Shown here piece after piece: positions 9,624 to 30,296 of a DNA stretch of 64,000 nt. The position numbers and the translations under genes are program-made. The notes under the pieces were generated by a model. The model ran no database searches, had not been told where the DNA came from, and saw nothing but the letters and a program-made list of their open reading frames with translations. How positions within the stretch are numbered: position 1 is the first letter of the stretch; every line of letters begins with the position of its first letter. This DNA is from Solirubrobacterales bacterium. GTDB lineage: Bacteria > Actinomycetota > Thermoleophilia > Solirubrobacterales > 70-9. The DNA is taken from positions 1 to 64,000 of the forward strand of contig JADGPJ010000001.1 in the NCBI GenBank assembly GCA_017882505.1. The letters are read 5' to 3'.

Positions 9624-10373
9624 ATGAGCGATCCGAACGAGCGCGATTCAAAGCTCGTCCAGTACATGAACGAGGCCTACGGCAAGGAGCGCGAGCTCGA
9701 GAGCGCCCTGCTGGCCTACATCGATATGACCACCAAGGCGCCTTACAAAAAACGGCTCAAACAGCACCTGCGTGAGACCAAAGGGCACGCCAGAGAGCTG
9801 GAACGTCGAATCAAGAAACTCGGCGGCGGCGGCCACGCGCTGCAGAACGTGGTCGCGAAGACGATGGCGGCGGCGAAGGCCCCGCTGCACGCGATTCGCG
9901 GCAGCGGCGAGCAGGAGAAGATGCTGAAGAACGCCAAGACCCAGTACTCCGACGAGCACGAGGAGATCTCGACCTACCTGGCGCTGGAGACGTTCGCGTC
10001 GAAGGTCGGCGACAAGGTGACGGCGAAACTGGCACGCGACATCCGCCGCGAGGAGGAACGGATGGCGAAGTTCCTCGAGGGCCAGATCAAGTCGCTCTCC
10101 AGCGCGGTGGCGCTGGAGGAGGTTCCCAGCGCCCAGCGTCGCGCGGTGAAAGCCTCGGTGTCGCGCAAACGTCCGGCGGCGAAAAAAGCCCCGGCGAAAC
10201 GATCGGCTAAACCGAAAGCTGCGAAAAAAAGCCAGCGCCAAACGGAAAAGCGCGAGCAAAGCGAGCGCGACGAAATACCCGCCGGCGGCCCCCGGCCTAC
10301 CAGCCGGGGACGAAGCCGTCGACTGGGTGAGAGTCATCGCCGCCCTCGGGCAGTTGCCCCGAGGCGGCGATGA
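9624..10373 (+). CDS. DUF892/YciF-like ferritin-like protein with Lys/Ala-rich tail (3' end uncertain)
   Basis: MNEAYGKERELESALLAYI...HARELERRIKKLGGG; basic tail; 3' end overlaps the convergent cupin gene after an A7 run. Confidence 0.65.
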   Translation: MSDPNERDSKLVQYMNEAYGKERELESALLAYIDMTTKAPYKKRLKQHLRETKGHARELERRIKKLGGGGHALQNVVAKTMAAAKAPLHAIRGSGEQEKMLKNAKTQYSDEHEEISTYLALETFASKVGDKVTAKLARDIRREEERMAKFLEGQIKSLSSAVALEEVPSAQRRAVKASVSRKRPAAKKAPAKRSAKPKAAKKSQRQTEKREQSERDEIPAGGPRPTSRGRSRRLGESHRRPRAVAPRRR

Positions 10374-14551: not shown

Positions 14552-15673
14552 TCAGCCGAGGCCGCCGCCGATCAGGGCGCCGATGCCGAAGGTCAACGCC
14601 GCGGCCGCGACCCCGATCAGGACCTGGCGGCCGCCGGAGAAGAGCACGCCGCGTCCGGTCATCACGGTTATCAGCGCCCCGATCCCGAACAGCGCCGCCG
14701 CGGAGAAGGCGGCGCTGACCACGATCGCGACGGTGCCGCTGAGCAAGAAGAAGGGGAGGATCGGGACCGTGGCGCCGATCGCGAAGAGGACGAAGGAGGT
14801 GCCGGCGGCGGCGCCGGCGGAGCCGCCGAGCTCCTGCGGGTCGATTCCGAGCTCCTCCCGCGAGAGCGTGTCGAGCGCCTGCTCGGGAGTGGACATCAGG
14901 CGATCGGCCAGGGCGCCGGCCTGGTCGGCCGGCAGCCCCTTCGCCTGGTAGATCAGCGCCAGCTCCTCGCGCTCCTCCTCGGGGATCGCCTCCAGCTCCT
15001 CGCGCTCGATCGCGATCTGGCGGCTGAACAGCTCGCGCGCGTTCATCACCGAGATCCACTCGCCCATCGCCATCGAGCCGGCGCCGGCGACCAGGCCGGC
15101 CAGCCCGGTGATGAGGATCTGGCTGTGGCCGAGCTGGGCCCCGGCGACGCCCATCACCAGGCTGAAGTTGGAGATCAGCCCGTCGTTGGCGCCGAGCACC
15201 GCCGCCCGCAGCGAGTTGCCGCTGGCGGCGCGGTGGCGCCCCTCGAGCCGGGCCAGCGAGGGGCCCTGCAGCCCGCCCTCGCCCTCGCCGATCGCCTGCA
15301 GCAGCCGGGCGTGGGAGCGCTCCTCGGCCGGCAGCGCCGTTCCCGCCGCCTCGGGCTGGGCGTCGTAGGAGCCGGCGTCGGCCTGCTCCATCGCGTTGAT
15401 CGTCGGCAACACGAAGCCGGTGCCGACCCGCCCGGCCAGCCAGGCCAGCAGTCGAGTCCTCCAGCCGATGTGGGGGGAGGGGATCGCCTCGCCGGCGTCG
15501 CGCAGCCGCTGGCGCCAGAAATCCGCGTGGCGCTCCTCGACCTCGGCCAGCTGGCGGTAGACGCGCCCCAGCCGCTCGTCCTCCTCGAGCGCCGCCACCC
15601 GCCGGTACAGCTCGGCGCTGTCGACCTCGTCCTGGAGGTTGCGGCGCCAGCGGTCGGCGTCGGTGGCGGGCAT
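14552..15673 (-). CDS. Ferritin-like + CCC1/VIT1 fusion (EVIT/MbfA-type iron exporter)
   Basis: N-terminal rubrerythrin-like E/H motifs (DEVDSAELYRRVAALEED, EVEERHADFW); C-terminal VIT1 domain LGANDGLISNFSLVMGVAGA, GSMAMGEWISV. Confidence 0.88.
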   Translation of the reverse strand: MPATDADRWRRNLQDEVDSAELYRRVAALEEDERLGRVYRQLAEVEERHADFWRQRLRDAGEAIPSPHIGWRTRLLAWLAGRVGTGFVLPTINAMEQADAGSYDAQPEAAGTALPAEERSHARLLQAIGEGEGGLQGPSLARLEGRHRAASGNSLRAAVLGANDGLISNFSLVMGVAGAQLGHSQILITGLAGLVAGAGSMAMGEWISVMNARELFSRQIAIEREELEAIPEEEREELALIYQAKGLPADQAGALADRLMSTPEQALDTLSREELGIDPQELGGSAGAAAGTSFVLFAIGATVPILPFFLLSGTVAIVVSAAFSAAALFGIGALITVMTGRGVLFSGGRQVLIGVAAAALTFGIGALIGGGLG

Positions 15674-28089: not shown

Positions 28090-28962
28090 ATGGAAGGAGG
28101 GGGGCCTCGGCGTCGCCTCGTCGCCCGGCTGGCCCCGGCGGCGGCCTTGGCGATGCTCGCCCTTGCGCTGGCGCCGGCGAGCGGCAGCGCCATCGGCGGC
28201 GTGCCCGGAACGCGCCACTGGCGCCCGCCGCCCCGCACCGCGGCGTGGCAATGGCAGCTACAGGGCAAGATCGACCCCGACGTCAAGGCTTGGGCCTACG
28301 ACATCGACGGCTTCGAAGCGACCAAGGGCGATGTGCGGGCGCTGCACCGCCACCGCCGCAGGGCCATCTGCTACCTCGACGTCGGCAGCTGGGAGAACTT
28401 CCGGCCCGACGCCGGTCGCTTCCCGAAATCCGTGATCGGCCGCCGCTACGCCGGCTTCCCGAACGAGCGCTGGCTCGACGTCAGTCGCTTCCAGCTCTTC
28501 GCGGCGCCGCTGCGAGCGCGGATCGCGATGTGCGCGCGCAAGCGCTTCGACGCCGTCGAGCCCGACAACGTCGCCGGCTGGGAACCCGAAAACAAGACCG
28601 GCTTCGACATCACCCCGGCCGACCAACTCCGCTTCAACCGCTGGATCGCCCGCGAAGTCCACGCGCGGGGGATGGCGGTGGCGCTGAAGAACGACGGCCG
28701 CCAGGTCAAGCAGCTCCTCCCGGACTTCGACTTCGCGATCGTCGAGGAGTGCTTCCAGTACGAAGAATGCGGCTACTACGAGCCCTTCGTGCGAACCGGC
28801 AAGGCCGTCTTCGAGGCCGAGTACGAACTCGAACCCGCCGAATTCTGCGCCGCCGCCGAAGCACTCGGTTTCAGCGCGATCCGCAAGTCCTACGACCTCT
28901 TCGCTCGGCCCTGGGAACCCTGCGATCCGCTCGCTTCGAGCCCGCGGATCAGCATCGGGTAG
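28090..28962 (+). CDS. Secreted GH114-type endo-alpha-1,4-polygalactosaminidase family protein
   Basis: Signal peptide; AWQWQLQGKIDP, AICYLDVGSWENFRPD, FDAVEPDNVAGWEPENKTGF, ALKNDGRQV, FAIVEECFQYEEC. Confidence 0.88.
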   Translation: MEGGGPRRRLVARLAPAAALAMLALALAPASGSAIGGVPGTRHWRPPPRTAAWQWQLQGKIDPDVKAWAYDIDGFEATKGDVRALHRHRRRAICYLDVGSWENFRPDAGRFPKSVIGRRYAGFPNERWLDVSRFQLFAAPLRARIAMCARKRFDAVEPDNVAGWEPENKTGFDITPADQLRFNRWIAREVHARGMAVALKNDGRQVKQLLPDFDFAIVEECFQYEECGYYEPFVRTGKAVFEAEYELEPAEFCAAAEALGFSAIRKSYDLFARPWEPCDPLASSPRISIG

Positions 28963-28996
28963 AGCGGTGCCCGCAACCGTGCCGAAGGAGGCCTAG

Positions 28997-29635
28997 ATGG
29001 GATTCGACCAGTACCGCGAGCCGCCCGACGAGCTGTCGGCCGAGACCCGCACCTTCGCCCGGCTCCCGCCTCGCTGACCGAGGAGGCGGAGGCGATCGGC
29101 TGGTACGGGCAGCGCATCGCCGTCGAGCAGGACGCCGAGGCGCTGGCGATTATGCGCGACGCCCAGGCGGAGGAGTTCAAGCACTTCGCGATGGACCTCG
29201 GCCGCGCCGAGCTGGCCGACAACGACCGCGGGGCGGTCGATGCCGATCTCGAGCCGCTGGGGAAAGGCGCCGAGGACTACCCGCGCTCGGTCGCCCGCGC
29301 GGTCGAGTCGATCCGCCTGGGCGGGGTGGAGGGGCCCTACGGGCTGGCGCTCGGCCCCGACGAGTACACGCAGGTGATCGAGACGGCCGAGCACGGCGGC
29401 TACCCGCTCTTCGATCACCTGGCGAAGATCCTCGCTGGTCCGATCGTCTGGGCGCCGGGCGTCAGGGGCGCCCTCGTGATCAGCCTCCGCGGCGGTGACT
29501 TCCGCTTCGAGTCGGGCCAGGGTCTGGCGATCGGCTACAGCCACCACGACGCCGAGCCGGTCCACCTCTATCTGGAGGAGAGCCTCTCTTTTTGTGGTCG
29601 CGACGCCGGAGGCGGCGGCGCCGCTCAGCCCCTGA
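28997..29635 (+). pseudogene. Collapsed EncFtn (encapsulated ferritin)-encapsulin fusion pseudogene
   Basis: Frame A MGFDQYREPPDELSAETRTFARL; frame B ASLTEEAEAIGWYGQRIAVEQDAEALAIMRDAQAEEFKHFAMDL, then encapsulin-like RAELADNDRGAVDADLEPL and YPRSVARAVESIRLGGVEGPYGLALGPDEYTQVIETAEHGGYP...GALVISLRGGDFRFESGQGLAIGY...LYLEESL; frame C FVVATPEAAAPLSP*. Confidence 0.85.
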
Positions 29636-29663
29636 GCGGCGCCCACCTGGAGCTCCCGGAGTT

Positions 29664-30296
29664 CTACTCGGACGCGGCTGACTCGACCTCGACCTCGGGG
29701 TCGACCTCGACCTCGGTCTCGGGGTCGGGCGACATGAAGTGCAGCATCTCGACTTTGGAGAGTATGCCCGGCTCGTCGCCGTTGGCGATCCGTTCGGAGG
29801 CTTCCGCCTGGATCTTCAGGAGCCGGTCGAGCGTCTCGCTGAGGAGGCCCGCCACGTCGGTCCAGCCCTTCTGGTCGACGACCATCGGCACGCGACTGAG
29901 GTGGCGATCCCCGATCTCGTCGAAGGTGCCGCTGCGGACCGCCTCCTCGATGTCATCGAAGACGGCTTTCAACATCGCGCCGGAGAGGCCTGGGCGCAGG
30001 ACGGTGGGCATCCGCGACCATTCGGCATCACTGAGGAACTGGCGTCGAGTGGCGCGATAGAAATGCTCGGTGGCGCCGCGGCGCTGCTTCGTGTCGACCA
30101 GCTCGATGCAGTCGTATTTCTCGAGCACCCGCACGTGGTAGGCGACCAGATTCAGACTTTGGTCCAGCTCCTGGGCGAGCAGGTTGGGGCTGGCCACCCT
30201 CTCGTTGAGAATGATCAGGATCCGTACACGCAGCGGATGAGCGAACGCTTTGGCGACAATTTGTTCGACGCCGTCCCTTTTTCTCGTCTTCGGCAA
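29664..30296 (-). CDS. ArsR-type HTH regulator with C-terminal extension
   Basis: AFAHPLRVRILIILNERVASPNLLAQELDQSLNLVAYHVRVLEKYDCIELV; probable TTG start. Confidence 0.85.
   Translation of the reverse strand: MPKTRKRDGVEQIVAKAFAHPLRVRILIILNERVASPNLLAQELDQSLNLVAYHVRVLEKYDCIELVDTKQRRGATEHFYRATRRQFLSDAEWSRMPTVLRPGLSGAMLKAVFDDIEEAVRSGTFDEIGDRHLSRVPMVVDQKGWTDVAGLLSETLDRLLKIQAEASERIANGDEPGILSKVEMLHFMSPDPETEVEVDPEVEVESAASE

Follow-up and report, generated by a model that had tools for sequence, protein, structure and literature searches.

A probable recent pseudogene of a family 1 encapsulin operon, and the cargo genes of its relatives

Remnants of a cargo gene and a shell gene

The window is a stretch of 64,000 nucleotides from a draft genome (G000; 2.63 Mb, 127 contigs, 93% complete). 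At about 29 kb into a contig of 101,641 bp, it carries pieces of an EncFtn cargo gene and of a family 1 encapsulin shell gene, lying between two intact neighbours (Table 1). The original prediction described a fossil of a cargo and shell operon, and translation of positions 28960-29760 reproduced the peptides that it had quoted from three reading frames. The GGAGG that it placed before the ATG at 28997 is present and is conserved in G001, the sister species, and in G010.

Table 1. Features of the locus and its immediate neighbours, in window coordinates.
Feature	Position	Strand	Description
GH114 (PF03537)	28090..28962	+	Upstream neighbour, intact; beside the operon in 5 congeners
EncFtn N-terminus	28997..29065	+	MGFDQYREPPDELSAETRTFARL; frame A, original start, upstream GGAGG; TGA soon after the 1-bp deletion
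Lesion 1	29065..29066	+	1-bp deletion, frameshift relative to G001
EncFtn residues 25-68	29068..29199	+	Frame B; EE..AI.WY.QR and EEFKH retained
Lesion 2	29200..29207	+	Junction of a 443-bp deletion; cargo and shell joined in frame
Shell residues about 88-105	29208..29257	+	ELADNDRGAVDADLEPL; from alignment to G001
Lesion 3	29250..29258 (~29257)	+	In-frame 114-bp deletion (38 codons) between 8-bp near-repeats CGAGCCGC / CGAGCCGT
Shell C-terminal half	29257..29586	+	110 codons aligned; PF04454 positions about 142-252
Lesion 4	29589..29593	+	1-bp insertion at 29589 in a T run, frameshift
Shell C-terminus	29594..29635	+	VVATPEAAAPLSP; cognate shell stop TGA at 29633-29635
ArsR-like HTH protein	29664..30296	-	Downstream neighbour, intact

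The polypeptide encoded by frame B matched both the Pfam EncFtn-like profile PF22277 (E 2e-8, profile positions 22-64 of 85, 34.3 bits for a cut-off of 27; window positions 29062-29199) and Linocin_M18, PF04454 (E 4.4e-32, profile positions 142-252 of 253, 111.7 bits for a cut-off of 24.3), which bears out the two family assignments of the prediction. The NCBIfam model of the family 1 encapsulin shell, encap_f1 (NF041155), was also matched above its cut-off (E 1.3e-33, 116.6 bits for a cut-off of 100), and ferrit_encaps matched the remnant with an E of 3.9e-9, under its cut-off. In a search of the whole genome, the EncFtn stretch was recovered with an E of 2.0e-9 and the second half of the family 1 encapsulin (29260-29586) with an E of 4.8e-31. 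No other match to PF04454 or PF22277 was found in G000 by this search, and hence no sign of the intact encapsulin which the prediction had proposed to look for elsewhere in the genome. A search for family 2 encapsulins (PF19307) gave no match, yet its controls likewise gave none.

The EncFtn N-terminus is 95% identical to residues 1-21 of the G001 protein, and residues 25-68 are 93% identical. The ferroxidase ligands (E and ExxH) are still present in frame B, within EE..AI.WY and EEFKH; the EXXH motif has been named in the literature (PMC11202242). The shell no longer has a full-length HK97 fold in a single open frame, having lost residues 1 to about 84 and a block of 38 codons, and it carries a frameshift close to its C-terminus.

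Lesions were mapped by alignment to the intact locus of G001. Both frameshifts were recovered, as were two deletions, one of which fuses cargo to shell; together the 443-bp and 114-bp deletions account for the missing cargo C-terminus and for the loss of much of the shell N-terminal half. The larger takes out the C-terminal half of EncFtn together with its targeting peptide (GSLGIGSLKG), and the shell from residue 1 to about residue 84. The targeting peptide (SLGIGSLK) is kept in six congeners. The aligner splits this lesion into 361 and 82 bp around seven bases; a single event is simpler. Since the intact genes of the relatives overlap as ATGA, a deletion of 443 bp (2 mod 3) unites the cargo and shell frames.

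The four lesions lie within 640 bp and are confined to the operon, since the genes around it (HATPase, sigma, GH114, ArsR, Usp, ArsR2 and GH15; about 2,050 codons) have kept all or almost all of their length and are colinear with those of G001. The shell remnant carries four changes (L226R, D232G, G203A and F253L) at 69 positions that are invariant in nine intact shells, whereas intact shells show 0-3 changes at 69-72 such positions. L226R and D232G are radical; F253L adjoins lesion 4 and may belong to it.

With a dN/dS of 0.154 between G000 and G001 over 110 codons, the shell remnant still has the appearance of a protein-coding sequence. The branch of G000 carries 11 nonsynonymous and 13 synonymous changes, that of G001 5 and 13 (p 0.34). 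This nonsynonymous excess is not significant and points only weakly to relaxed selection; the loss of the operon in this species thus appears to be young.

The orthologous site in congeners

The comparison set comprised 12 genomes of one actinobacterial genus, G000 and 11 congeners, all of them drafts from which a cargo could be absent. An ortholog of the ArsR-like protein occurs in all 12 and marks the orthologous site, which in nearly all genomes is flanked by the sigma factor and HATPase genes at one end and by the ArsR-like and Usp-like genes at the other. Full-length encapsulin was found in nine of the 11 congeners. In an unrooted tree of HATPase, sigma and ArsR, G000 falls among shell carriers as sister to G001, with a bootstrap of 100. 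In G001 cargo and shell are both intact and have the same neighbours, so the window locus can be read as a derived pseudogene.

Four states of the locus were observed. EncFtn and shell are both intact in six congeners (G001, G003, G007, G008, G010 and G011), and GH114 adjoins the operon in all but G007. These intact relatives resemble the EncFtn encapsulins of Rhodospirillum rubrum and Haliangium ochraceum (PDB 5da5, 7oe2, 9ry4): the cargo precedes the shell, the genes overlap, EncFtn ends in a tail of the same type (SLGIGSLKG), and the shell can be aligned end to end with solved family 1 shells. The copy in the window differs from the Rhodospirillum and Haliangium operons in being broken: deletions have removed half of each protein, and there are two frameshifts.

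Three other congeners have an intact shell and an EncFtn that is gutted or gone. In G004 (L056:6108-6330) the core of EncFtn has been deleted in frame, joining MVFDQYHEPPEGLPARTRTFARLCASLDEESQAIG to a tail that ends in SLGIGGLREEAR, so that the remnant retains the N-terminus and the targeting peptide; an intact shell follows. In G005 (L053) and G006 (L054), nothing of EncFtn is left but its final 9-12 codons (IGSMKGQGR), which stand directly before the ATG of an intact shell and were perhaps retained because they hold its ribosome-binding site. Finally, G002 and G009 show no trace of the operon between sigma and ArsR; as the tree is unrooted, it may have been lost there or may never have been present.

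In G000, then, both genes are broken by two deletions and two frameshifts, the sister species is intact, and a search of the assembly turned up no other copy. From the profile matches, the intact orthologs in the sister and five further congeners, the four lesions and the lack of another encapsulin, we consider it very probable that a family 1 encapsulin operon, with an EncFtn ferroxidase cargo gene followed by an overlapping shell gene, has recently become a pseudogene here, and to this reading we join a proposed rule on cargo. The idea of a fossil operon is thus upheld; to it are added the exact lesion sizes, the sister species, further stages of loss among the congeners and a second, unlinked cargo. 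The pseudogene itself is ordinary in kind, and the interesting part is the pattern of cargo dependence.

Tagged cargos and retention of the shell

A C-terminal targeting peptide holds cargo to the shell, and FLP-TP proteins store iron together with it (PMC11202242, PMC8229669). We found an unlinked DyP peroxidase with a C-terminal SLGIGG in G003, G004, G005, G006, G008 and G011, and thus in all three shell carriers that have no intact EncFtn, where the tails read SLGIGGLRDG (G004), SLGIGGRRDADLA (G005) and SLGIGGIGAG (G006). The G006 protein, which served as the query in the comparison, has the domains PF04261 and PF20628. The DyP of G011 is tagged and contains an assembly gap; a frameshift in it was rejected, the interruption being a run of N and not a lesion. 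In G007 a DyP fossil (C331, L116:4725-4918) consists of two fragments in different frames, the rest having been deleted, and is syntenic with the DyP of G005, G006, G008 and G011. No tagged DyP was found in G000, G001, G010, G002 or G009, the site in G001 being unreadable since the neighbouring gene there stands at the end of a contig; beside the neighbouring gene in G000, G010, G009 and G002, where the flanks differ, no DyP remnant was seen. A targeting-motif scan of G000, with FolB- and BfrB-type motifs outside its range, returned 12 matches, none of them a targeting peptide at a protein C-terminus; those near a protein end belong to a VIT1 membrane protein (14552-15673).

All 12 genomes fit one pattern: where the shell is intact there is at least one intact tagged cargo, and where the shell is broken or missing there is none; G000 has a broken shell and neither cargo intact. 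Fisher's test of shell against cargo gave 0.0045, a value that overstates the pattern, the species being related. The pattern rests on few lineages and suggests that two interchangeable cargos, the linked EncFtn and the unlinked tagged DyP, served one shell and were lost in different species, the shell staying while either remained and decaying after both had gone. The locus would then be the end point of a cargo-dependent dismantling, a proposal to which we give about even weight. It would have run as follows. The 443-bp deletion would have removed the cargo C-terminal half, the targeting peptide and the N-terminal third of the shell at one stroke, and therefore neither a loaded nor an empty shell could form; self-assembly of what is left is not expected. 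If EncFtn was the sole cargo in this lineage, nothing would have selected for retention of the shell. Congeners with the second cargo, the DyP ending in SLGIGG, could lose EncFtn and keep the shell intact, the tagged DyP presumably holding it under selection elsewhere in the genus. Stated as a rule, a shell would persist for as long as the genome keeps one or more tagged cargos, and no longer. Ordinary ferritins would take over iron handling and storage; G000 retains a classic ferritin (G000:C25:45014-45421).

The main alternative accepts the pseudogene and takes the rule for a coincidence: the shells of G004, G005 and G006 would reflect recent loss of EncFtn, or another use of the shell, and not selection exerted through DyP. 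Few lineages are involved; taken alone, the non-overlap of EncFtn and DyP losses in the nine genomes with an intact shell does not reach significance; and encapsulation of DyP is predicted from its tail. Moreover, G005 groups with G007 (support 93), so the loss of EncFtn may have happened twice, and late, in G005 and in G006. However, between G005 and G006 the shells show divergence (dS 0.33) with a dN/dS of 0.275 and no lesion, and so resemble shells accompanied by EncFtn (0.2-0.33); the DyPs do end in an encapsulin targeting motif; and shells have decayed only where both cargos are missing. Coincidence seems a serious possibility, somewhat short of an even one.

Unlinked secondary cargos are well described: in Mycobacterium tuberculosis and Myxococcus xanthus one shell serves core and unlinked tagged cargos (PMC8229669, PMC11830004). 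The arrangement in this genus would be the same, but here EncFtn is the core cargo and DyP the unlinked one, and different congeners have lost the one or the other with the shell staying. A full-text literature search that covered few subscription papers brought up no account of an encapsulin operon in decay, or of cargos lost reciprocally. Encapsulins are patchily distributed, and the manner of their loss is little described. Within one genus the same locus, flanked by conserved genes, occurs here in intact, cargo-less, broken and empty form, so that the value of a shell without its operon cargo, and the ability of an unlinked tagged enzyme to keep a shell under selection, can be tested. The value of the pseudogene is as one stage of a comparative series on why cells keep encapsulin shells.

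Other accounts of the lesions

It is very unlikely that the lesions are errors of assembly or sequencing in a species whose operon is intact or differently arranged. The assembly from which they are known is a draft of many contigs, and the T run that holds lesion 4 is a kind of site where indel errors are common. On the other hand, four separate lesions of different kinds fall in these 640 bp and none in the flanks, the locus lies mid-contig, lesion 3 is placed at near-repeats as expected of a real deletion, and no second copy was found on another contig. The clustering of the lesions and the changes at invariant sites, two of them radical, speak for decay rather than for error.

Even less probable is that the deletions made a compact EncFtn-encapsulin fusion, translated now or until lately, with frameshifts that are errors, arose late or are bypassed. 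Neither deletion breaks the frame (443 bp fits the one-base offset of the gene overlap), one long frame B is left, and dN/dS of the remnant is low. Natural FLP-encapsulin fusions are known in archaea (PMC8346489), and those of Pyrococcus furiosus and Sulfolobus resemble the locus, in which an EncFtn-like stretch lies N-terminal to a shell stretch in one frame after the 443-bp deletion. Those fusions, however, keep the FLP domain and an assembling shell (PMC11202242, PMC8346489), whereas in the window both parts are truncated and the frame is broken. The locus does not hold a whole FLP domain fused to a whole shell in one open frame, as EncFtn lacks its C-terminal half and the shell lacks residues 1-84 and another 38 codons. 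Two of two deletions would be in frame by chance about once in nine, and therefore no selection is read into it. Frame B has no ATG, GTG or TTG before 29152, and F253L, L226R and D232G fall at invariant positions. A compact one-frame fusion in relatives, the finding that would have spoken against a fossil, was seen in none of the 11 congeners. Programmed frameshifting was rejected since it could not restore the deleted halves.

Further features were observed near the pseudogene and elsewhere in the window. The ArsR-like protein has a low-complexity acidic tail (EVEVDPEVEVES; 29664-29735, minus strand) encoded by a short CGACCTCGACCTCGG-like repeat. A DUF892 protein (9624-10373, plus strand) also gives a weak match to the ferritin profile PF00210. 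The protein encoded at 14552-15673 on the minus strand belongs to the VIT1 family (E 2.9e-62) and has an extra N-terminal region that is very weakly rubrerythrin-like (E 0.076, below cut-off); iron or manganese handling is a possible function of this protein in the same window.
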